Shown here piece by piece: positions 25,461 through 47,600 of a stretch of 64,000 nucleotides of DNA. Origin of the DNA: Halichondria panicea (taxonomy: Eukaryota; Porifera; Demospongiae; Suberitida; Halichondriidae). A program made the translations under genes and the position numbers. The notes below the pieces were generated by a model. It worked only from the letters and a program-made list of their open reading frames with translations. It searched no databases and was not told the DNA's origin. The stretch is taken from positions 3,078,800 to 3,142,799 of the forward strand of contig NC_087388.1 of NCBI RefSeq assembly GCF_963675165.1. Direction: 5' to 3'. Position 1 is the stretch's first letter, and each line of letters begins with the position of its first letter.

Positions 25461-28400
25461 TTACGTGAATCCCCCATGGGACTGATGAAGATGACCGTAG
25501 CACTCTCCTGAGCTGCTAAAAAAGGCAAGGCAGTGCCAACAAATGTGCGACTTGCAACTTCTACAAGCCACGTGAGCACATCCTCCATACTTCTCGATTG
25601 GAGTGTTGCACTTAGGACAAAGCTTCCTGTTTTCTGCATCGTCCTGCAACCAAGAAGTCAATCCTTCATCAGGATTACCAGAAGATTCATTTTGTGCACA
25701 GGTAAGGCCACAATGGAAAGGTTGGTGACAGTTGGTGCAGGTCAGTACACCACAGTGATTGCACAAAAAACACTGCCCCTCTTCTGTGACAGTATAAACC
25801 ATACCACAATCTGGGGTGGGGCAATTGTGCACCTGATCGTTGTTTGCTGTTATGTATGCACGGACAGACTCTGTAATTACTGTCTGTAGATTCAATTTTC
25901 CCTTTGATTTGAGATTTTCAAAGTCTTGCCATACAAATGGACGAGAACATCCTTCAGCAGCACATTGGATTGGAATTGTGATTGTATTTGGTGTAAGCTG
26001 TGCTTCTACGCACTCACAGTGGTACGCATGTCCACAGTCCTCAAGTCTATATACACTTTCCGTGTCATCGATTAGAGTGTAGCAAGCACAGCACATAACA
26101 TCACCAGCAAGGGAATGAACAATCGGAGTATTGGTGGAATTTTCTTCACAAAATTGCTCAATAATATCCGTAAGCACTTTGTATCCGGTATCAGAGGCAA
26201 AAAGAATTAGTATCTGTTTGCGAATGTCAACTCTAACCATTTCAATTCCGGACTGTGTCATAAGCAATCTTAAATCAATTCCGAATGTAGTTATAAGGAA
26301 TTTTAAAAGTCCAGGAGGTCTTCCAGTTTTCTTCAACTCAATTTCATAATAACTTATCCCAATTCCAAAAGAAAGAGATTTGTCAAATTCTGCCTTAGCT
26401 TTTGTAATGTTTTCTTTTATACCATACATTTTAATACATTTGAGTCGAAAATCCCTACGAATAACAGTTAAGCTGATCTCCTCAATTTTCTTTATGTCTT
26501 CTTCACATCTTTTTGATCTCATGTACTCAAAACGAAGTTGGTCCGAGCATTCTATCACATCTGGCTGTAGAACAGAGTTCAATGCTTTTAAAGCTGCAAC
26601 GAATTCAGTTGGATTACTTGATTCGACCTTTACAATTACAACGTCTCCTTTCTTGGAGTTGGTTACCTTTACGGACCTATAGTCAGCTTTGACATTTTCA
26701 GTTGCTTCGTACACCGATTTCTGAACAGCTGCGTACAGTGTTGGGGAGAATTTAATGCTTGACGAAAGAAAACGATGGATTTTGATTGGCTTGTAGTTAA
26801 TGCGAGCATTATTTAATGTATCTATTGCTGTCATTCCTTCATCAATGCTTGTAAAATTCACAAAGGCTACAAAAAACTTGTGATAATTTTCAGGCATTAG
26901 AAGTTTGAGGTTAAACTTTTCTTTAGCAATGGGACCCATAAGACTGTGTAGAGTCTCTTGCAGCAGTTCATGCTCTTCTTCGGTAGTTTCAAATACTTTT
27001 GTGTAAGCAAATATCACATCATAACTGCCTCTAGGGTAGCCTAGTGGGGTCAAAATTATATCAAACTCATTTCGGATTGCTTCTTCAGGAATTTGAGGGG
27101 GTACATTTGATGTGTAAATATGGCATTCATTATGCTTTGATATTCGGAATCGCAATACCACACCAGCAATGGCAGCACCATGGTCGGAAAGATGAGTAAA
27201 GATTGTAGTTATATGAGGTGTTCGGAAATCAAGATTCACAAAGTTTTTGCGGTCTCTTCTGTTCCACTCCATCTTTATAGTAAGATAAGATACATTAAAC
27301 CGATCTTTTTTTCTTGGGAGAATCGGCTGGATACAAACTCCAGTTGGGGTCGTTAGTTTACTTGCTTTTTCGGCATCATTAGAATCATAGAAAGTCACGA
27401 ATAAGCGCCTTTCTTTTGTGAAAACCTGTTTCTGGATGGCGCCACAACCGCTAAGCGTTTTTGTGAGCTCTTCATTCCAATTACCAGTTACAGGCCCCTT
27501 AGCAACCAAACAGCGATATTGATGAGGCATCAGAATTTTAACAGTAACGCCTCCACTTCCAACAAGCACTCTGACATTGTCACCATCTGCGGTTACACCA
27601 GCCTCAGAACAGAACATATTTAGCTCAAGTTTGATGTGACTTATATAGTGCTCCAGGTGTTTCTGCACCAGTTTACGAAAACTGTTTTGTACAAAGACTT
27701 TCAGAGTACCATTCTTCTGACTAGCATCAATCTGAACTCGATTCAGGGAAGTAAATGTAGGATGATCAAAGAGAGACCTTTGGTTGTGAACAACAGTGTC
27801 AAGTACATATGTTCCAAGGTGCTCAACAACAAATGGTGATACTTCTAAGTTTGTAAACTGCTCACATTTCATGGGGTGATGTCGTATCAGTCCAGACTCA
27901 AGTGCTTCTTCCACCCACTCTTCTCTTACTGGCAAAACTTGAAGGAGAAAATGCTGAGAGGTTCTTAAAGTTTTTTCATAAATGAGAAACTTGGGCTGGA
28001 TATTCAGTTTACACAAAGAAGATCCTGGGAAAATGACAAGCTTCTCGTCTGGAAGGTTTGGATTAAAGTAACCAACTTTCTCATGCCCAAGAAACACACA
28101 TAGATTGTTTGCAAATGATTTAAAGAAGAGTTTAGCTACCTTGTCTATTGCCCTTTCGAAAGATAAGGTGCTTGTAGCAATTGGTACTTTTAGCTGTTTC
28201 TTGACTATCACAGTGAGATCTTTGATCGTTTCGTCTACGATACGCATGCTCTTTGCATTAATACTGTTTTTCACACACCAAGCATTGCGCTCTTGACGAG
28301 AATTAGATACCCATTGGCAATAGGCATTGAAATCAGTTAGCTGGTCGCCTTCAGGGACGCAAAATGTGCTCTTCAACAAATCACTTTGCTCCTTATTCTG

Positions 28401-31400
28401 ATCCGTTCCACCTCGAAAGAAAATAGTGCTAGCTAGGGAGGAAATAGCTGCCATGGCAATTGCTTCTGACCCAGCTTTCTCAACAAATCCATCTAGTATA
28501 ATCTTTGCTAGTCTTGGATCAACAGGGAGTGCAGCCATTGATCTGCCAATATTTGTGAGCCTGCCGTTACACACAGCACCAAGGAACTCTAGAGTTTCAA
28601 CAGCATATATCAGAGCAGCTTCTTCCGGCTTTTCAATGAAGTCAAAACCGAGTACATCTGTGATTCCAAGTTCATGCAACTTAAGAACTGTGCCAGCCAG
28701 TGACACTCGTAGTATTTCAGGAACCATTCTTTCTGACATATTCTTGTATGTGTCCTCCGAGTAAAGACGGTAACACTTTCCCGCACTTGTTCGTCCTGCT
28801 CGACCTTTTCTCTGTTCAGCGGAGCTCTTACTAATATCTCGAACTTCAAGAGAGTTCATGTTCTTCTTCGCATCAAAGCATAGTTCCTTGACAACACCGG
28901 AATCCACAATGTATTTTACTCCAAGAATGGTAATCGATGTTTCAGCCACATTAGTGGAAAAAATAATTTTTCTTTGAGGATAGTCCTTGAAAACTTTCTG
29001 CTGATCTTCTGGTTGCAGCTTACCGTGTAGAGGCAGAATACAAGCTGTGTTTTTAGTACGCATTTCCAATGTCTGGCAAGCACGTTCGACTTCACCAGGG
29101 GAGGTAAGAAAGACAAGGATATCACCTGGGGGTAGGAGTTGGTAGATAATATGCTCGAGATTTTACCTATTATTTTTTATGCTCAGGTTCTTTTTAAATT
29201 GCCTACAAATCGCCTTATTCCCACATTCCTCCAAAGTACAACACAAACCACACCCCATGTTGTCACATCAAAATGGCCACATGCACGACTCTATCTCTTA
29301 ATAACATTATGATATAGAATGCCAAGGAGATAATTATCCACCAGTATTTCTACAAAGTAATGACAAATTGTTTATACTAAGACCTAAACCTGCCTATATT
29401 CCCATAATTGTTAAAGGTGCCCATCATGCCAGCATAATTCTCACCAAAAACATGTGCATACTATGCTCAAGCATTATCTACCAACCCTACCTGGGGGTTC
29501 ATTCTTGTGCAGTGTATCGGCATAATCTATTGCTCCAGCAACATACACAGGCATCCCTCTTTGCGAGTTCTGACTGGTTGTGATAGGGCAGTACGTCACA
29601 TCTACAGGAAATAATCGACCTGGCACAGTCTTTACTGGACAATCCTGGCCGAAGTACTGCACAAAATTCTTTGGGTCAATAGTAGCTGATGTGATGACTA
29701 CTCTAAGGTCTGGGCGTGTTGGAAGACAACGCTTGATGAACGCTAGTAACACATCAGTGTTCAGGTTCCTCTCGTGAGCTTCATCCACTATCAGGCAAGA
29801 GTACTTGGAAAATGTTGGATCTTCAACACACTCATTTAGTAAAGTGTGATCAGTTACGTATAGCATGTCAGTATCCTCTGAATAGTTACCATGGATGCCT
29901 GTTTTGTATCCAACAATTGTTCCAAGAGAGGCAAACATTTCTGAGCTAACATACTTAGCAAGAGAGATAGCAGCCACCTTTCTCGGCTGTGTGCACACAA
30001 TAACACCTGCACTTGCAAAGCCATCCTCATAAATGTACTGAACAAGCTGTGTGCTTTTTCCAGAGCCAGTTTCTGCCGTTAGAATGCTAACCTGGTTATT
30101 TCTGATAATTTCCATTATCTGCTGTCGATGTGAGTATATCGGAAGTCCTTTATTATACCTCAAGCATTCACACTTTAATCTCCTTTCAAATAGTTCTGGA
30201 GGAGGAGATGGTAAGCTATAGCTGCGAGCAAATTCACACAATTTTTCACAGGCTGTGTTAAACTCAAATTGTCTGCACTGAATCTCTGACATCTCAAGTG
30301 CTATTGATGTCTTTTTCTCTTGCAATGTTTGAAATAAAGTTAATGAGCATTTTTTCGGAATCAGAATCTGAGTTTGCTCCTGTTTGAGCTGAGAAATTCG
30401 TTCTTTGCATTTTGTTCCAGTGCTTTCTTGCTCATACTTGATTCTAAGTAATAGATTGTCAACAGACGAACACTTCTGATCATATTCAGGCTTGTTGGAA
30501 GCTGCAGAGTTAATACGTGCAACGCTCTTGTGCCTTTTCTTTTTCTGTGGTATGTCTTTTCCATCAACAATGACAGACTTCAATACTTTCTGTGACACTT
30601 GATGTGCAAGTTGTTGATCAGTTGGTGTATTGGAGGGACGTTTTTTCTTTTTCTGTGGTAAGTCACTTCCATCAACAATGACAGGCTTCAATACTTTCTG
30701 TGACACTTGATGTGCAAGTTGTTGATCAGTTGGTGTATTCGAGGGTTGTTTTTTCTTTTTCTGTGGTAAGTCACTTCCATCAACAATGACAGGCTTCTGT
30801 GACACTTGATGTGCAAGTTGTTGATCAGTTGGAATATTCGAGGGTTGTTTTTTCTTTTTCTGTGGTAAGTCAGTTCCATCAACAACGACAGGCTTCTGTG
30901 ATACTTGATGTGCAAGTTGTTGATCAGTTGGTGTATTTGAAGGTTGTTTTAACAGTTCTTTCTTTTTCTGTGGTATGTCACCATCCAGAATGACAGACTT
31001 CTGTGATAAATGATGCGGAAGTTGTTGATCAGTTGGTGCTAGTGTGTTCAAGGGTTGTTTTAAGGAAGCTGTTATAGTCCTGCCATCCATACAATAACCA
31101 TTAAGATGTGTCACAGCTCTCTCGGCACCTTCATTTGACTTAAAGTTTACCCAGGCATACTTGTTTTTGGAGCCCTGAATAAAGGGCTTATTAACAAGCT
31201 TTCCATGTTCCTCTACCAGTTTAGTGAGCACATCTTGTGTTACACTTTTTGGAAGGCAAGTAATTTTGACTGTTTGTGGCGTCTTTGTTGAATCAGATTG
31301 CAAAGTTGAGCAACATTGTATTGCGCTTGTAACTGGTTCTATGTTTTCACTGTGTACCACTGAAAAAATGTAAAGCTTAATTACTAAGGAGGCAACCATA

Positions 31401-34400
31401 AGATATTGATCATTCCTGTACCTGTTGCACTTTGATTCACTTCACAAGTATTGTTGAAGTCTCCATTCTCATCAGAGACTACTTTCTAAAATTGAAAATA
31501 ATAGCAATAATTAATTCGTACAAGTATATGGTTTAGGGTTTAGCTTACTTTATGGGGGTCATAACGACAGACACCATCAACCAGAAATTTGTACTGGTAT
31601 TGACCAACAGGCAGAGAAACTTTGATGTAGAATCCTTGTTCACCTCTGTATTTATAATTATACTTGATGCGATGGTAACGTAAATAACTGTCATACAGAT
31701 ACATTGAAAATCAATACGAACTGACTATAATGCTCGACCAGAGGACGCTCCTGTATAAAGGCCGCTTCTCAAATAGTAGCCTCCATTAATTACCAGCAAA
31801 ATGATTAGCAGCCGCTCTCAAATAGTAGCTTCAGTGAATATTAACTCAAGCATTTCTGCACGTGGAAGCCATATTTACTATAGCTACATGTAGCTATATA
31901 GAAGCCTATAGAAATTCTTACTTATACTTCATTGATCTTTGAGCAACTGTAGCACTCCACACACACACCACACACGTACACACACACACAGACACAATAC
32001 TACCGTATACCTCGCTTGCGCATGCGCACCATAAAGGCATTAATGAGTGCGGTCAAGAAGTCACAGCAATTTATAGCTTATTCTGCCTTGGTGCACTCAC
32101 GCACAGCAAAGATAAAGGATTGGAAACGGAAATGACCTCGAATAAACCATCTGTGTCGCCCCGGTTTTATTCGAGGCTGTCTATACACTCCAACGTGGAA
32201 AGAAAATCCAGGCTAGAAACGGTCCGGTTGAGGAAACAAATGATAACAAAACTGCTGCTGCATGAACGTATTGGTTATGTATATCTACTACCCAGTCAAT
32301 AATTAAACCGCTTGTAGCACGAATTGCCATGTAATGTACTTCGTTGTCAGTTACGGTAATACGTTTGGTTTTCTTGTTGATTTTTGTGAACTATAAATGC
32401 TATATGCTACATGTAGAAGTTTGTGGCACATATATAATAGGTGTATCATTCTGTATGACAAGTATCAATCTTCAAAACATCTTGCAGTGGAAGCTCTGAG
32501 CGATCATCAAGTTACTAGAAACAACACAGACTATAGTAGTCATTTTAGACGTCCAAAAACACTTCTAGTTCTGTGTTTTTGCTCTTATGCTTGTTACGAT
32601 TCTGGAGGGTGACTCAAAGCGTTTTTTTCTTTCCAGGCTATTAAATAAACGAAGTAATAATAATTATGTAGACTAACTACAGTCAGAGCCAAGGATAACA
32701 GCCTTTTGTGAGCTTTCAGTAGCCTTTTTCAAAACATCTCTTTGAGCCGCCCTGCATATACAGTAGACAGTAGACTGTACTTACAGTGCAACAACCAAAG
32801 AGAGTAGAACTTTTGTTTTTTTTTACGTTTTTGTGTATATCTTCTAAACTAAATGTGATTGGATCAATTTGAGTGCAGGTACTGAAAGTTCAACTATTGG
32901 CGCTTCCAGTGGACCACCACCTGTTACATCATATGACATTATCATTCCAAAATGGCTGCTAGAATATGTGTACATTGGAAAATATGTTAGGCATGGAACT
33001 ATCTTATTTGTTTGAGTTAAGATCTGAAATTTGTTGTGCAAGTACTTCATTACCTTGCACATCTTTTGAGCTCCAGCGGAAGTGCAGGCTACTGGTAGGT
33101 TCTGAGATACACAGAATTTTGCAAATTTTTAGTAGCAAATGTGCTAGGCATTGATTTTTTGAGTTTATGCTAGTTAAGGTCTGATTTTTGAGGAGCACGA
33201 ACTACAATAGTAGATCTATACTTTTCATTTGTACTAACTTACAGGAGCTAGATCAGTCTCTTCTTTGCTAGAGGGGAGGCCCTTTTTGTCAAAAATGGTG
33301 AGTTTAGCTGCGTAGTAGTGTAAATTGCCACGCCCCTGTGACACATATGACTGATCAACTGGGTGTAGTTGCCAGGTTAGACATCACATGAGCTTGGATG
33401 TAGCAAATAAAGACAAGATGATTTGTGATGTCACAAATCAATGAATATCATTGCTACGTCACAAAATGGGCAAAGAGCAGCAAAATCATTTTTGACAAAA
33501 AGGGCCGCTCTAGCAAAGAGACTGGTCTAGCTCCTGTAAGTTAGTACAAATGAAAAGTATACTATTGTAGTACATGCTCCTCAAAAATCAGACCTTAACT
33601 AGCACAAACTCAAAAAATCAATGCCTAACTCTACTAAAAATTTGCAAAATTCTGTGTATCTCAGAACCTACTAGCTAACAGCCTGCACTTCTGCTTGAAC
33701 TCAAAAGATGTGCAAGGTAATGAAGTACTTGCACAACAAATTTCAGATCTTAACTCAAACATATAAGATAGTTCCATGCCTAAGCCATTTTGGAATGATG
33801 ATGTCATATGATGTAACAGGTGGTGGTCCACTGGAAGCGCCAATAGTTGAACTTCAGTACCTGCACTCAAATTGATCCAATCACATTTAGTTTAGAAGAT
33901 ATACACAAAAACGTAAAAAAACAAAAGTTCTACTCTCTTTGGTTGTTGCACTGTAGCTATCTAGTAAAAGTATCTATTTAAGCCACGAAATGTCTACTCG
34001 ATCTCCGTTTCAGTTGGATCTTACGATTACTAGATCTAGCTAGCTCATGAATAATTAATGAGCAAACGGTTTACCGTAACTTTAAAACAATAATTATTAT
34101 TGCACTATAACTGCATGGAAACCATGCATATAAAATCCTACTATTTCTGCCTTACTATTTTAATGGCGGTTTTTCTCAATAATGCAATTTCATAGCAACC
34201 AACTTCAAACGATCATAAACTTAGTCATAGAATGAGGTATGTACACACTTAGCATAGCATTGCGTAGGCGTTTGTGTGCTCTATCACCACATACATGTAC
34301 AGAGATCTCGATCAAGCCAATTAAGTGGTCCCTATTCTCAAATTGCATCATTAGGATAGAGTAGTACAGTAGTTTATCCGGTCACCCGTGCAGGTTGACC

Positions 34401-36653
34401 GGAATAGCGAGGTAGCTGTATATTTCAAAACATAGCCACGGCTAAATAACGGTCCTACGTCGAATCTAATAGCAAGCGAGTGGCCGCATTTCAGGGCGAG
34501 TTTTGCATAGTAAAGATCAAGCAATCTGTGCCAAAAAATAACAAGTATAATTATGGAGGTGATCGTACTTCAGAGAGCCGGATTAGCGAGAGTCTACGGT
34601 ATAGTTCAGCTTAGGGTGCTGTATGTAGTTTGCACTGCAATGGCTGGCAAGAATCTAGTAAACCACAGTATGCACTGATAACTCCCCAGAAAAAGGAGAT
34701 CGTTGGGGATTGGGTTGCAGTTGGTTAACCCTTCCCCTCTGGCCTCTGGGAGGTTTTAGGGCAGCTAAAAAGCGAGAACATCAATGCTTTGTGAGTTAAA
34801 GGAGGATCATAACTACATGTAGATAGGAAGCTACCTTTCAGAGGTCAAGCTAGAGACCATGTTTCTGGACATGGACAGTGGTACGTTACCATTTGTAGCC
34901 CTGATAGGGTTTGCTTAGGCTAGTTAGTACACAATTAAGTGAACATCATTGAATTTGTAGCCTAAGTGTATGCATTTCCTGGGAAAAGGGCGTCTGCCAA
35001 TAGGACCTCACACACAAGTTTCTGCAGATCTTATAGAGAACACTTATAATAGTGTCTTTAGTCCTTAACACACACTTAATTATTGTTTGAGTATGTTTCA
35101 ATCTATGACTAATTATAACTAGTGTTCAAGCTGGCGCTGTGCTAATGCCTCTCGCCATGTTTTTGCTTTCGCTTAAAAGTATTAGAGTGTTATATTAGTA
35201 TTAAAGTTAGCTTATCTATATAAAGTCACTGAGAAGAAAAGACTTATTTACATGCATCTATTGTTGTATTATGTGGCTTACCAGGATCTCAAGAAAGAAG
35301 AAAATTGATTCTTCCAGGATCTGTAGTTCAGTGTATATAATATCTAAGAAGAAAAGACCTGTGTACATGCATATTGTTATCTATATTGTTATATGGTAGT
35401 GTTTTGTGGCTTATATACCAGGCCCTCAAGACAAAGATGATTCTGCCAGGAGGATCTTGGGATATTATTTTCTCACACATGGGGAATGAGCGCGCATGCG
35501 CATTACATCCACAGGAATAATTAAAGGGTGTGTCCAAAGAGATCAATTTCACAAATGGCTACTGCTAGCTAGCTGTTTTAAAAGATATTTTCTGAGTATT
35601 GTAGCTAACAAAAAGCTAGTGTTTTAGTGCAAGGCTAACTCATATGTTGAATAGAAAGTTTGTGCGGACAGATGATGCTATGAAAGATTCTGAAGAGACT
35701 GCAACAGCCTTCAATGTGAGTCAAACTAGCCATAACTCGAGAAAGAAGCTTTAGTTTGCTAATCCACGAATCAAAATCCAAGAGAACGTGGCTAGAAGCC
35801 TATAGAAGCTGTTAGTTTTCGTTACATTGCAACCGTTGAGCAGTTATAGCTGGAATACACACACACACAGACACACACACAGTCAGCTTTACCGTATCCC
35901 TCGTGCGGCTACGCCTCGAGGCATAATTAGTGCGGGTGGTTCGTTGCTAGGTAATAATAATGGTGTCGAGATACCCCTGGGGTCTGGGCTATTCAAAGTA
36001 GCCAGAGAGGCACATAAATTTACCTTCAGCTAGTAAGAGGGTTTGTCTCACTGCAGAAAATTTATAGCCCAATCAGATTTCAAGCTGAAGGCGTGGATAT
36101 GAATGAGCCAGTAAGTAGTACTATACCGTAAACGTTCTAATTATAGAACCAGTAAAAAATAATTATTTTTCTAGAAACAATGTACCCAACAAAATGATTT
36201 TATATGGTGGTATTATGGGCGTTATAAAAGAGGGCGTCCTACCCGAGGCTGGTTCTATAATTGGAACGCTTACAGTATTCGAGCTTTGCCGTTAACGCCC
36301 ACCATGATTAATAATCACACCCTAAGTATAAAAACTCGTACCCTGATATGCATGGCATGGCGTGGTTCTCAATCCTACGTGAGCGTCCAAGGTTGGGCCA
36401 TTAAATCACAAGCACCTTAATTAATTAATAATTATTTAGCACAAACTAGGTCTAGCACAAACTGTAGCTACCAATACCCAAACAGTCATGCAGGGACACC
36501 ATAAATTATACAGATATAGAGATATATAATTTCTAGCTATACAACTTCTTACTTCTTAGCCATTGGTCTTCCTGGCTGTTTCCAGTCATCAAAGCTTCCA
36601 AGAAGGAAAACTTCACTACCCTCAGCCTCCCAAACGAAAGTATGCAGCGCCAT
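25461..36653 (-). CDS. CBM48-RRM-DEAH helicase-RING-IBR-RING fusion (DEAH11/12-like)
   Basis: Minus-strand exons 36653-36553, 31645-31549, 31485-31422, 31359-29491 and 29125-25461 keep phase at all four junctions and encode 1931 residues. Order: residues ~3-85 AMPK-beta-type CBM48 (VFLLGSFDDW, YQYKFLVDG, DPHK); 117-189 RRM (RNP2-like KITCLP, RNP1-like KYAWVNF); 190-365 five basic repeats; helicase with Walker A AETGSGKST (516-524), DEAH (613-616), SAT (645-647), FSTNVAETSITI (766-777) and QRKGRAGR (815-822); HA2 from ~859; OB-like and KH/RRM-like middle; RING1 ~1722-1770, IBR ~1812-1853, RING2 ~1880-1908 with catalytic-type Cys1893 in KYGGCAH. The DEAH-plus-RBR core matches plant DEAH11/12. 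Expected activities are ATP-dependent RNA remodelling and ubiquitin transfer; substrates are unknown. The two 3' exons are certain; attachment of the CBM48 exons rests on splice-site and phase agreement. Confidence 0.9.
30527..31054 (-). repeat. Five-copy tandem repeat inside coding exon 4 of the fusion gene
   Basis: The protein unit is about 33-36 residues with core PTDQQLAHQVSQK, then VDG.D.PQKKKK. Copies 2-5 are nearly identical; copy 1 (PTDQQLPHHLSQK) has diverged, and two copies carry an extra VLK. DNA similarity between copies is high, so the expansion is recent. Each unit ends in a lysine run, giving a regularly spaced basic linker between RRM and helicase. Confidence 0.92.
31422..31645 (-). 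other. Exons 2 and 3 of the fusion gene: second half of CBM48 and linker
   Basis: Exon 2 (31645-31549) encodes GFYIKVSLPVGQYQYKFLVDG then a DPHK end; exon 3 (31485-31422) encodes KVVSDENGDFNNTCEV. This follows AMPK beta order exactly (LPEGEHQYKFFVDG, then DP, then GTVNN). Lys53 and Asn77 occupy glycogen-contact positions (human beta1 Lys126 and Asn150), but the second tryptophan (beta1 Trp133) is Cys60 here. Exon 3 ends in ACA G, and exon 4 opens TG GTA CAC, so phase is kept into the RRM. Confidence 0.8.
31905..32042. repeat. Family-F repeat terminus
   Basis: cctatagaaattcttactta, a CA-rich microsatellite, then ccgtatacctcgcttgcgca with gcatgcgcacc. It lies in intron 1 of the fusion gene. 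Confidence 0.55.
32782..33955. mobile_element. 1.17-kb near-perfect palindrome (foldback element)
   Basis: The left arm (~32782-33300) starts tacagtgcaacaaccaaaga and the right arm (~33485-33955) ends in its complement. Arms of ~470-520 bp match closely along their whole length, separated by a ~185-bp spacer containing cacaaatcaatgaatatcat. TA lies at both ends. Long ORFs inside are unrelated to known proteins and appear on both arms. Confidence 0.85.
34367..34602. repeat. Dispersed repeat, copy 1
   Basis: It shares gaatagcgaggtagctg-type blocks, atttcagggcgagtttt, caatctgtgccaaaa and tcagagagccggattagcga with 59405-59672. Fusion-gene intron 1. Confidence 0.65.
35640..35935. repeat. Family-F repeat, 3' part
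   Basis: It shares cataactcgagaaagaagc, aatccacgaatcaaaatcca, the CA-rich tract and a taccgtatccctcgtgcggc terminus with the other copies. Confidence 0.55.
36553..36653 (-). other. Exon 1 of the fusion gene: first half of a CBM48 (AMPK-beta glycogen-binding) module
   Basis: It encodes 33 residues plus two bases, beginning MALHTFVWEAEG. The motif VFLLGSFDDWKQPG matches the YLSGSFNNW strand-turn of AMPK beta, with Trp24 at the sugar-stacking position (human beta1 Trp100). The donor gtaagaagt follows 'AA', and exon 2 begins with a single A, completing Lys34. Intron 1 is 4.9 kb. The ATG is the first in frame and no earlier coding exon was recognised. Confidence 0.8.
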
Positions 36654-41663: not shown

Positions 41664-44600
41664 TTACACTAAGGAGTCTAAGGTGTCTGTATTGGGCTCT
41701 GAAGTGGCAGGCTCGACATCTGCATGTAAAATTATTATTGACTAAATTAATTACTGTATAGCCGGTAATTTTCGGGGGGACAAAATATTCGTCACTTTTG
41801 TGGTTGAAGCTCTGACCACGAATGATTTACCCACGAATGAAGCGACCTTGACTGCCTTTACCCACAGTGCAATTAGCAACCACGAAAATATTATCCACGA
41901 AATGTCCACGAATATTTTGTCTCCCGAAAATTACCCGCTATACAGTACAAAATAGGCACTCTACATTAATTTTACAGAATAACAAGTATGACAGCAGAGT
42001 AAGAGCCTATAATTATACTCATGGAAAGTTTTGTACATGCCAATAAGACTCACTCTGATTTTCAGCAGGTTTCCTTATAGTGCGTGGTTTCGGACGTGGT
42101 CTAGGAGCTGGTGGATCCATTGTTGTCCTGCGCTCTGGTTTAGGTGAGCCACCAGCTGGTTTCTCCGCTGTTGGCGGGGGTACCTGCATAATATGCCGTA
42201 GTAAGTATTTAATAACGATGCCTCAGGCGTACTGCTGCAGGACACAATGCAGTAAAGCTGTGTATCTGCCTGTAACTGCTCAACAGTTTCAATGCGACTA
42301 CAACTAAGAGCTTCTATATATAAGATTTTACTTTGTTCGAAGTAAACCTGTTCTTCTTTCTATTTAACTTATCCGCATGTGCACTTAATTCCACGTGCAT
42401 GTGTGGGAATCCTGTTTTTCTTTCATGAGCCACACAACACTACAACGCTAAACATGCACCGAGGCTGTAAGCTAGCGCACCGTGGTGCTTGAATGCTCGT
42501 TAATTTATATTGCACATTCATCCAATATTAACCTTCGGCTTTTTCTTTCCAAATGCATTGGCTAACTCGTCCATGTTAACATTGGGCATTTGCACTCCAC
42601 CAGGCAGCCTCTTCATTGGTGTTGGTTCAGGAGCAACTGTCGAGGTATTTTCTGTTTCAGTAGGTTGTGGTCGTTGCTTGGGTTTGACAGCAGGCTTTCC
42701 TTTTGTAGCAGGTGGTTTCTCTTTGACTGTTAGAGACTCACTGTTTGGTTTACTCTCTAAAACCTCCCAGTCTCCACTTTGACGAGATGTTGTCACTACT
42801 GGTTCTTGAGCTGGTGTGGGTTTTTCTTCAGGTTTTGACTTTTTACTAAAGATTTTTGAGAGCCCATGTCTGCAAAAGAAGAATATTAAACAATCAGATA
42901 GTGAGCAACAAACAATCAATGAGTACAAAACTGTATAAGCATCAAGCAGAAGAATACGAGCACAATTCTGTTAATTTCATGTACGTACATGTACATTGTA
43001 GTTTACACTTCCAAATGCTTGCATATTTTGAAACTACACGTACCTTTTTCGTTCTTTTGTTTTCTTGCCATCAGCAGAGCCACTTCTTTCCTCCACGGTC
43101 TGGTTTGGGCTTGGTGTTCTCTCCATTTTGGGGGGAGTGACTACTTCCTCTCGTGAGGACTCACCAGAAGCACTGTCAGGAGGCTTGGATGCCTGGGGAC
43201 ATAATTTTGAAACATGTACTATACATTGTACATGTACTGCATAAAAAAGTGTGCCGAGAAATTCAGCGTTGCTTGTTAAATATACATCAGAACATACATG
43301 TACTATACATGAGAATATTACATGTACCGTACACCCTCACACATTCTTTTGCTACAACCTCCTTGCACGAGGGTATTTTGACTCAAAAAGGTATGTGAAA
43401 TATTACATGTATTAATTAGTTATTGTAGCACGAGTGCAACATGCCATATTATTGCACTGGAGTGTACGAGGGCGCCTGCAATAACTAACTTGTTGCCCAA
43501 TGACGCCAAACTCTTCTGATTGGTCAAGTTTTTCCCTGAAAGACATGTGTTTTGAGTGAATTCATTAGATTTGCTGAATTCCATAGTAAATTCTTAGTTT
43601 GTTACCACAACTAGTGCAAAAGGAAGTAGCATAAGTCGAAAAGCAGATTTCATTTGCTACATGTACATGTACTGGATTGCTTTGATCTGCCCACCCACTG
43701 GGCAACAAGTATATAAACAGCATGTGTTAGGAACTCTACAGTGTGCTGGGAGTTATTAGTGATGGCTTCTAGAAAGCTAATCCAAGAAAGACAGTATGTG
43801 GCTCTGCTTGCCCTCAACGATGTTAAATGCAGGAAAAACTAGGCTAGTCTTTCACTACTCTCAGAATGATGTCGATCACCCATGATTTGCAGCTTGTCTT
43901 GTTCTTCCTCAGTGGATAAAGTACTTACATGTACCAATGACATTGTGCTACTATACATACACATGTAGCTAAGTTGATTTATGTATATAATACGCATTTA
44001 CATTGTACGAGCCTCGAGACCAAGTCGTGGGGTATATTTTCGAGTATAACTACGCCGTTAGCGAGTCCAGCCCTATCTCAAGTCTAAAGTTCTTCGCGAG
44101 TGTAACGTTAAACGAACAGACATGAGCTGGGTGCATCTAATGGGAGTACTTACAATTGGGCTCATTGGAAGGATAATCTTTGGCTCTGAAGGTGGTAGCT
44201 GATTGACTTGCTTGTGATCATCTTCACTATAATTACATGTACAAGGACAAATAGTCTTACACTTACACCATGAACATACAGAGCAAACGTACCTCACACT
44301 CAGTGATTGTAGCTTTGAAGTGCTCTCTGTCACAGGCAGAGGATTTGAAGGTTGCTTGTGCTTGTCCGTTTCAGTATTTTTGGGTTCTTCTTTAGGAAAA
44401 GGGATTGTCGGAGTTTCTTCAACAGGTGGAGTAGCAGACATCTCACCAATTGGAGGACTGTCAAGTTTCTCAGGTAGTGTAGGTGTATTACTGTCTGTGG
44501 AGGATGGTTGCAAGTTTTGTTCTTGTGATTTTGTAGTTTCTGCTTCTGTTGGTACTGCTGGCTCTTGGGGCAGTGATGAATCAGCAGGAGTATCCTCTGT

Positions 44601-47600
44601 TTTATCTGGCTCCGGAGACGTTTCTTTGATAACTGGTTTGTCATCCTCATTTGGTTTGTCATCAGATGAACCAGCAGTATCTGGGTCGGAGGAAGTGGAA
44701 GCTGGAAGTTCAGGTGTTGAAGGAGACTCATCCGGGGAGGTTGCAGATAATTTATCTGGTTCAGCCTCGGCAGATGTACATGTATCATCTTCCTTGCTAG
44801 GATCAGTCTTAGGTGGCCGTGGACGAGGGGAAGGTTTTGGGGATGCTTTAGGAGTTGCAGGTTTTTCCTCTGTTGAAGCCTCTAGATGTTCATCTTCTGC
44901 AGGTGCTTTAGCTTCAGTAGGTGGAGGACTATGTTCTTTTTCATCAGCAGCCTCAATATTAGTACGCTCTGGCTGGTCCTGTGGAGAAGGGGTTCGAGTC
45001 AATGCTGATGGTGGGAGGAGAGGGGACTTCGACTGTGGAGGAGACTGTTGTTCCTACGTACATGTACATTGGACAGAGTAATTTTAACGAGTCACTTTCA
45101 TCATCCACATGTACATGTATTGTAAGTTGCACCAGGGAATAATGCATGGATCCCTCAAATGTTACAAATGCCACCATTGATGCGCTTTTTAACAATGCTA
45201 TCTTAACAGGTTAATATAACTATTGTGCTTTTTACCTCCGTGGGTCCCTCTTCTTGAACAGCTGTTGGGGTGTTTAAATTGGGACTTGGTTTGACAGTCG
45301 GTCGTGATTTCCCTCCTCGCTGCATGCGCGCAGGCTTAGGTCTAGTCTTGCCAAGATGTTGGAGAGCAGGACCCACGGCCACTAGAGGCTCGCTGGGAAG
45401 ATCAACTGCAAGAAGTGTTTGTTAACAAAGGTACATGTACATGTATCAGGAAATGTCGCACAAAAGTTTGAAGATACATGTACATGTACGTGATAAATTT
45501 ACATGTACACGTGCCTGAGGCACCTCGCACAATACTATCATAGTGAAAGTTTAGTTGTTTAGTTGATCAAATAAAATCGAAGTGAGTCTATGGCTAGAGA
45601 TAGTGAGTTAATCAGCAGCTGAAAACTGTACTCTACCTTGTTCCTCCTCATTAATATCGTCAGGGTCAGGACGACGAGCTCTCTTTTTCTTAGTAATGGG
45701 AGTGTTCTGTTCCACACGGAATGTAAAGTTTCGTGAGACCTTTGTATCAGGAGTGGCACTGCTGGCACGAGCATCTTTGTGCATCTTCATCTACATACAT
45801 TTAATTATGAGTGATAGCACTTTTAAGCTTATACATGTACATGTACGTCTATTAGAGCATGTATGGTACAATGCACTGATGTACACATGCATACATAGTA
45901 CAAGGGATCAGTTGTCGTCACCAATAGTTTAATTTACCAGTTTGAGATTAGCTTTGTCCAACTTCACCAATGTTTGCTCTACAATCAGCTCCGTAATGTT
46001 GGCAGCCACATCCAGGTTGATAGCACTGACATGACTCACAACCTCCGGAGCAGATTTCTTCGTTACAGCTTTTTTGGCGTATGTGAAGTCCGAGGAAACA
46101 GAGCTAGAGAGCACCATACCCCGTATCATTGTTTTAGCTTCATCAGTCAGGAGGGAGGGACATGCTCTCAAGGTTTGCTCCACCATACGGTCCGATGTGG
46201 CCTGATAGATATTAGTTAGTTGCGTTACATGTACTGTCCAAAATAATATGATGTACATGTACATGCATGTACGTGTACACAGTACATCTTGTTCTAATAT
46301 TGAACAGAAAATGAACCTTGATATGCTCAGTGTAGACTTGATCCATGAAGGACTCAAGTAGGATTTTCACTTGTGTTGAGATGGCTTGTAACTGATCAGA
46401 CTCAACTTGAGGGTTGTACAGTCCATCCGTAAGCTGGGGGGACACAAGTTAAGAGTCTGGATAGACTCAATTATTTATACATTGTGTGCCCACTGCAACT
46501 ACAAATGTACGTATAGTTACATGTGCATCAGGGTTGCATCTAAATGTAATAGGGAGGGCAGGGGTGAACCCACCTCCCAATGTTTGTAGAATATTGATGT
46601 GCAATATGTAACTAGATCTACCGTGATGCACTATAATTATGTAATAGAGGGTGTGGTCAACAATTGTGGGAGTGGCCAAACATTTTGAGGCGCGCGTAAC
46701 AAACCTTCCCCCCAAAACTTTTAATCCTAGAGATGAAACCCTGAGTAGCATGTACATGTATGTACCAGAGTACATTGTAGATGTACATGTATCAAGATCG
46801 AATAAGCGAATTTACAGGGCCTCACATGTACTTGAAGGCGTACACACAAAGTGGGGAATTAATTTGGCCAACACTCATATCGAGAAAGCATAATAAATAA
46901 CCAAAATTCAGCAATGAATGAACCTAAGTACATGCATGCATGTATGTACCTTGAGGACGTTGTTGGCTTCACTTTTGACTTGAGTGGCCTCCTTTACATT
47001 GTCATGGGAGGTCCCGTGGGCAGATTCTGCCCACTGCAAAAGGTCCTCCAGCTGTACCAGCTCACGACTCACAACAGACTACATGTATATTGATAGGTGG
47101 TTGGTGAGATTCAGATATAAATGAGTGTAAAAGGCATAATTGACACTTACACTCTGCTGTGTAGCCGTAAGCAGTCTACCTCTGTGTCTGGCTGCGAGCT
47201 CGACCTTTAATCTTTCATCAGAATGATTCCTACAAAGGAGCAGCTGGATCTCCTGCACAATTTTTTCAGTCTCTTTGCCAGCTCGGCCAATGTCTGCCAG
47301 GGGGAGGGGCATCACACGCAGAGTGTAGTTGCTTAGGGAAGAAGTAGTACATGAACATGTAAGTTATGGTTGAAAAAAAGGAGCACCTCATTGACCCAAA
47401 ATGCATAGGCGGCGCAGCGGATTATACAGCGTAGTAATCGTCAGTGTTGGTGAGACTGTCCACATTAATTATATTGTTTGTACAACACTCGTCCTATTGC
47501 ATATATAACTCGTAGAAAAAAGCTGATTGCATACACAGTCACGTATCCTAGTGTATATCACTTGCATCAAAAACAATTCACCCTTGCACTCACTGTTTGA

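Follow-up and report, generated by a model that had tools for sequence, protein, structure and literature searches.

Two questions are raised by the minus strand of this window (the whole stretch of DNA that was analysed, 64,000 nucleotides): whether a glycogen-binding-type CBM48 module, an RNA helicase and an RBR ubiquitin ligase are encoded there as one protein, and what such a front would do on such an enzyme. When spliced conceptually, the helicase-RBR gene (36653-25461, minus strand) consists of five exons with 1,931 open codons and a TAA stop codon at 25461; an in-frame TAA lies three codons upstream of the ATG at 36653, and all four introns have GT-AG borders. The exons are arranged as follows: exon 1 (36553-36653), an open frame ending at a GT donor, with the ATG and the first third of the CBM48 (residues 1-34, including W24); exon 2 (31549-31645), the CBM48 middle (residues 35-66, including K53 and C60); exon 3 (31422-31485), the CBM48 end (residues 67-88) with the GDFNN motif; exon 4 (29491-31359), the RRM, a lysine-rich repeat linker and helicase domain 1; and exon 5 (25461-29125), helicase domain 2, the HA2/OB region, RRM-like and KH domains, the RBR and the stop codon. 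Intron 1 spans 4,907 bases (31646-36552); a Pfam search at E 0.01 gave no match for any of the three stop-to-stop frames of at least 80 residues that it holds. Elsewhere in the window, minus-strand frames matching CPSF_A and the second beta-propeller of RSE1/DDB1/CPSF1 (546-1897) form part of a DDB1/CPSF1/SF3B3-type gene, a weak CytochromB561_N match lies under its curated cut-off on the same strand (42521-42970), and long overlapping open frames of 326 and 282 residues occupy both strands at 44073-45081, with no Pfam match at E 0.01.

The five exons very probably encode a single protein from the CBM48 through to the RBR. This proposal of the initial annotation is backed indirectly, by the length of intron 3, by conserved intron phases within the CBM48 and by the fronts of two PARP genes of the same genome. 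Intron 3 measures 62 bases and is therefore hardly long enough for one gene to end and another to begin between exons 3 and 4. The frame of exon 3, when read onward, meets a stop after 12 codons. No AATAAA or ATTAAA is present in intron 3, a result without weight because neither is present in the 300 bases 3' of the stop codon. The junction 29491/29125 is crossed without a break by P0002, a protein of 88% identity, and the junctions 36553/31645, 31549/31485 and 31422/31359 are backed by intron positions and phases that recur in the genome's other CBM48 genes. Exon 2 matches PF16561 by itself (31.2 bits, cut-off 26.8); it was picked up by the genome search with the CBM48 profile, and exon 1 alone was missed.

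A Pfam scan of the whole spliced protein gave 19 matches at E 0.1. The AMPK1_CBM match (E 2.7e-21, 76 bits, cut-off 26.8) extends over residues 5-85 and positions 4-82 of the 85 in the profile, so that the CBM48 is complete only with exons 1, 2 and 3 joined. Behind it, all on the minus strand, are located an RRM (residues 120-184, 31070-31264; RRM_1 E 6.5e-15, 55.2 bits, cut-off 20.7), the repeat linker (30512-31038), with a unit of about 33 residues, five copies of PTDQQL and lysine-rich patches, and DEAH helicase domain 1 (29666-30127), recognised by Pfam and by its GSGKST, DEAH and SAT motifs. The helicase motifs present are ETGSGKST (517), DEAH (613), SAT (645), TNVAETS (768) and QRKGRAGR (815), and both Helicase_C (E 4e-13) and DEAD (E 1.3e-8) score above their cut-offs. 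Between the helicase and the RBR, two elements absent from the initial annotation were identified: RRM-like folds, and a KH_DEAH11 domain (residues 1638-1705, 26142-26345; E 5.4e-13, 48.8 bits, cut-off 27). The RING1-IBR-RING2 unit (residues 1721-1914, 25515-26096), found by Pfam and motifs, includes IBR (E 1.8e-12, 47.6 bits, cut-off 24.3) and IBR_1 (30.8 bits, cut-off 27). Its C1893, within GGCAHV, occupies a column identical in at least 90% of 34 alignment rows and is presumably the catalytic cysteine, a role carried over from RBR enzymes. The best Foldseek match of the RBR is the RBR ligase ARIH2 (E 2.7e-6), but at TM 0.11/0.20. With the presumed catalytic cysteine and the helicase motifs intact, ligase and helicase activities are both likely. 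Among the 19 matches at E 0.1 there is no AMPK-beta C-terminal subunit-interacting domain, nor do the Pfam matches include the ADP-ribosyltransferase domain that is present in one of the PARP genes (PARP B, below).

The reading made from the letters was reproduced to the exact coordinate in its five minus-strand exons, canonical splice sites and matching phases, and its CBM48, RRM, basic repeat linker and complete RING-IBR-RING were recovered. Its complete DEAH helicase holds for the core motifs and for DEAD and Helicase_C; the matches to HA2_N (19.6 against 21 bits), HA2_C (16.4 against 21.3) and OB (26.5 against 29.5) stay under their cut-offs.

In the search with the back part of the protein, 36 of 4,560 candidates match residues 940-1931, and the named ones include a coral DEAH12 and plant DEAH11-type proteins; these homologues and the KH_DEAH11 score bear out the suggested relation to the plant DEAH11/12 helicase-RBR proteins. 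KH_DEAH11 has one match genome-wide, in this gene, and the next-best genome match to exon 5 is a helicase with 33% identity over 408 residues; at no other place does a match cover much over one third of this exon. The helicase-RBR gene seems to be single-copy in this genome.

The combination of the CBM48 with this back part had been put forward as unreported, and it was not met again: PF16561 is listed for none of the 36 homologues, none of the five scanned among them has a match at E 0.05, and no report of a CBM48 joined to a helicase, RBR or PARP was found in the open-licence literature. The missing PF16561 is not proof of absence, since the CBM48 exons are of 21-34 codons, with the first one kilobases upstream, and since the gene call of P0003 seems to open with intron residues. 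Homologue gene calls begin within the RRM exon or just before it, and that of P0003 is probably cut short; by eye, and from the protein only, its initial residues resemble a read-through splice acceptor before the RRM exon. Residues 1-120 gave 28 candidates among database proteins of about 1,062-3,379 residues, and residues 1-125 gave five among those of about 127-404 residues, none at E 1e-3 in either search, both of which reach only relatives with exact five-residue words in common. The P0003 scan of viral and of bacterial/archaeal contigs gave no relative.

The profile search of the genome revealed 10 AMPK1_CBM matches in seven genes. In six of the seven, the introns within the CBM48 share position and phase (2, 0), which supports junctions 1 and 2 of the window gene; these are the window gene itself, PARP A, PARP B and the genes on C6, C11 and C5, with the sites in the last three read by eye. 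The C6 gene has the best AMPK1_CBM match and is taken to be AMPK-beta. In the C11 gene (L013:5367-5765, plus strand), the remaining scanned ORFs yielded nothing above the Pfam cut-offs. The C5 gene (L015:9458-9982 and L016:325-3834, minus strand) possesses two KH and two Tudor domains with the CBM48 behind them, an order that we take to be TDRKH-like; in this unspliced gene, one open frame has the first CBM48 exon after a stretch read as the end of the Tudor region. The seventh gene, on C13 (L002:640-1791, minus strand), is a single frame of 384 residues with no CBM48 introns and a remainder that is esterase-like by eye.

The two remaining genes lie in tandem on C16 (L009-L012, C16:2972000-3011999; concatenated positions 7218-32767, minus strand) and carry CBM48-RRM fronts; they are tandem duplicates. 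In both, the CBM48 is divided into three exons with phases 2, 0 and 1, followed by one small exon and then the RRMs; the third intron is of phase 1 in the window gene as well. The spliced model of PARP B (2,209 open codons) contains AMPK1_CBM (E 5.4e-22), three RRMs, a macro domain, two WWE domains and PARP, and it is named PARP14-like for this domain order. PARP A (1,602 codons), judged by comparison with PARP B, is without the macro-WWE stretch. The first introns are long, with 8,576 and 3,787 bases in the PARP genes as against 4,907 in the window gene. By eye, a short sequence around GGACGCTCAC is similar at window position ~36380 and in the first introns of the PARP genes, and in one PARP intron the GGACGCTCAC-type sequence is part of an inverted repeat; it may be a small mobile element whose insertion made these first introns longer.

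The likeness of the fronts extends to the RRM. When the window RRM was compared with the genome, three matches at E 0.001 were obtained among 13 scored candidates, namely itself and the two CBM48-PARP genes (E 2.4e-9 and 3.0e-9, 42% identity); the matching PARP RRM is not the first one behind the CBM48. In a two-sequence database of the C16 PARPs, 13 of the 36 homologues, which come from other assemblies, matched at E 1e-3, 12 of them in the RRMs and seven of these across several RRMs, with a best E of 5e-15 for the RRM stretches. The RRM-front likeness of the two enzyme families thus extends beyond this genome; the CBM48 on both families was observed in this genome only. Several genes of the RNA type seem to have taken up a CBM48 cassette, namely the helicase-E3, the two PARPs and probably the KH-Tudor gene. 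The presence of this cassette with an RRM on PARP14-like genes, which lie outside the window, turns one odd fusion into a common module, and such a front on a ubiquitin ligase as well as on ADP-ribosyltransferases suggests one address for both.

The gene structure, the domains, the common front and the integrity of the motifs are the observations to be explained. On balance, it is somewhat probable that the helicase-RBR gene gained an N-terminal CBM48, and that the CBM48-RRM front common with the two PARPs is a common address. The AMPK-beta-type CBM48 would have been acquired through capture of three CBM48 exons. The RRM, the RRM-like and KH domains and the helicase may then engage RNA or ribonucleoprotein, while the CBM48 would position the E3 at a putative site common with the PARPs, either the surface of an alpha-glucan or a complex organised by CBMs, where neighbouring proteins, the presumptive partners and substrates, would receive ubiquitin from the catalytic cysteine of the RBR. 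As an E3 and two PARPs have RRM and CBM48 in common, we infer that all three are directed to one place by the front; this shared-address mechanism, taken for itself, is advanced only tentatively. A fuller version appears improbable, in which the CBM48-RRM would be an address tag gathering the E3 and the ADP-ribosyltransferases at glycogen particles or microbial glucan, as a glycan-anchored counterpart of PARP14-DTX3L, with the RBR ubiquitinating RNA-binding proteins at that site or the glucan itself.

In rat AMPK-beta1, mutation of W100, K126, W133, L146 or T148 is reported to lower glycogen binding markedly (PMC2642990); W100G and K126Q abolish it and W133L disrupts it partly (PMC6274970). 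Aligned with chain 1z0n of AMPK-beta1, the window CBM48 shows no gap from before K126 to after T148 and retains two of the five contacts, W24 (W100) and K53 (K126), with C60, N73 and D75 in place of W133, L146 and T148. The rat residue numbers were placed on the aligned chain by motif and are presumed to correspond. Elsewhere in the genome, three of five contacts are kept in PARP A and PARP B (W, K, W) and in the C11 gene, and four in the C5 gene (W, K, W, T) and the C6 gene (W, K, W, L; third exon by eye). Weak or altered carbohydrate binding is thus a fair expectation for the window protein, and better binding for the PARPs. The glycogen tether imagined in the initial annotation keeps W24 and K53 in its favour and is weakened by the three replaced contacts, and the interpretation given there is, as a whole, partly supported.

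These contacts also bear on a rival that agrees with the shared-address reading on the architecture and differs from it in the ligand. The CBM48 may no longer bind sugar and may serve as a docking or folding module, with E3 and PARP partners joined by protein contacts; this is conceivable, though it falls short of an even chance. Only two of five AMPK contacts are left, the W133 equivalent being a cysteine, and the AMPK CBM region also binds debranching enzyme, on which two glycogen-blocking mutations are described as having no effect (PMC6274970). However, the two residues kept are those at which mutation abolished glycogen binding, and the W133L effect was partial (PMC6274970); moreover, the PARP CBM48s retain W, K and W, and the window CBM48 scores far over the Pfam cut-off.

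A special case of the shared-address reading, modelled on RNF213 and on PARP14 with DTX3L, is that of an intracellular defence factor, in which RNA of foreign origin or microbial carbohydrate would be sensed by the RNA and glycan parts, the target then being marked by the RBR, with a CBM48-PARP as partner. PARP14 and the E3 DTX3L are described with similar RRM/KH scaffolds, mutual binding and joint interferon-induced foci (PMC13224862), RNF213, which has a CBM20, acts as a ubiquitin ligase on LPS (PMC12203941), and the tandem duplication of the CBM48-PARP genes would fit. On the other hand, the helicase-RBR gene is seemingly single copy, unlike many defence genes, and the KH_1 match in PARP B stays under its cut-off (E 0.021); a defence role is rather unlikely. 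It is highly improbable that the helicase-RBR begins in exon 4, exons 1-3 forming either an alternative leader or a short CBM48 gene of their own: the stop 12 codons past exon 3 and the start of homologue calls within or shortly before the RRM exon fit such a split, but the 62 bases of intron 3, the identical phases in the two PARP genes and the probably cut P0003 call, with its apparent read-through acceptor residues (by eye), argue against it.

With HOIL-1 and RNF213 as examples, a review describes ubiquitin as attachable to carbohydrate and LPS, and calls it open how such ligases find their targets. A ligase of the RBR type that carries its own CBM48 would be a natural test case for such targeting. 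The CBM48 on several RNA-type genes suggests that, in this animal, glucans are linked to RNA control or to defence in a way not described so far, and two further genes with the same front on another enzyme hint that RNA-control proteins tethered to sugar form a set that is likewise undescribed.

The known systems resemble this protein in parts. To our knowledge, HOIL-1 has neither a helicase nor a CBM48, and RNF213 has a CBM20, not a CBM48, and is not a DEAH-RBR protein. HOIL-1, the RBR E3 of LUBAC, is glucan-linked; its in vitro substrates include maltoheptaose and glycogen, polyglucosan builds up in mice with a ligase-dead form, and the presence of a carbohydrate-binding site is called unclear in its literature. 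Ester-forming RBRs of the HOIL-1 type are characterised by a catalytic C-terminal histidine and a 2Zn/6Cys cluster (PMC11962058). RNF213 is an E3 with a carbohydrate-binding module, CBM20, and carries out ATP-dependent LPS ubiquitination (PMC12203941); CBM_20 has no match in this genome at E 0.001. In human PARP14 and DTX3L, which bind each other, RRM and KH-type scaffolds precede the ADP-ribosyltransferase and the E3, and the domain lists given in that report name no CBM48 (PMC13224862). In contrast to DTX3L, with its RING-DTC, the E3 described here is formed from an RBR and a helicase. The window protein resembles AMPK-beta in its CBM48, with a 76-bit match to PF16561, and in the two intron positions in common with the C6 gene; it differs in keeping two of the five glycogen contacts and in that its 19 matches do not include the C-terminal domain of AMPK-beta. 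In domain order, the likeness is to DEAH11/DEAH12 of the Helicase (Plant I) RBR subfamily, whose members are known from both unikonts and bikonts (PMC2904391), with the same succession of DEAH helicase, KH_DEAH11 and RBR and with homology along residues 940-1931; no CBM48 is listed in the 36 homologues, and RRM_1 is unlisted in the three plant proteins among them. The back part adds a member to the known Helicase/DEAH11-12 RBR subfamily, and the CBM48 front is new.
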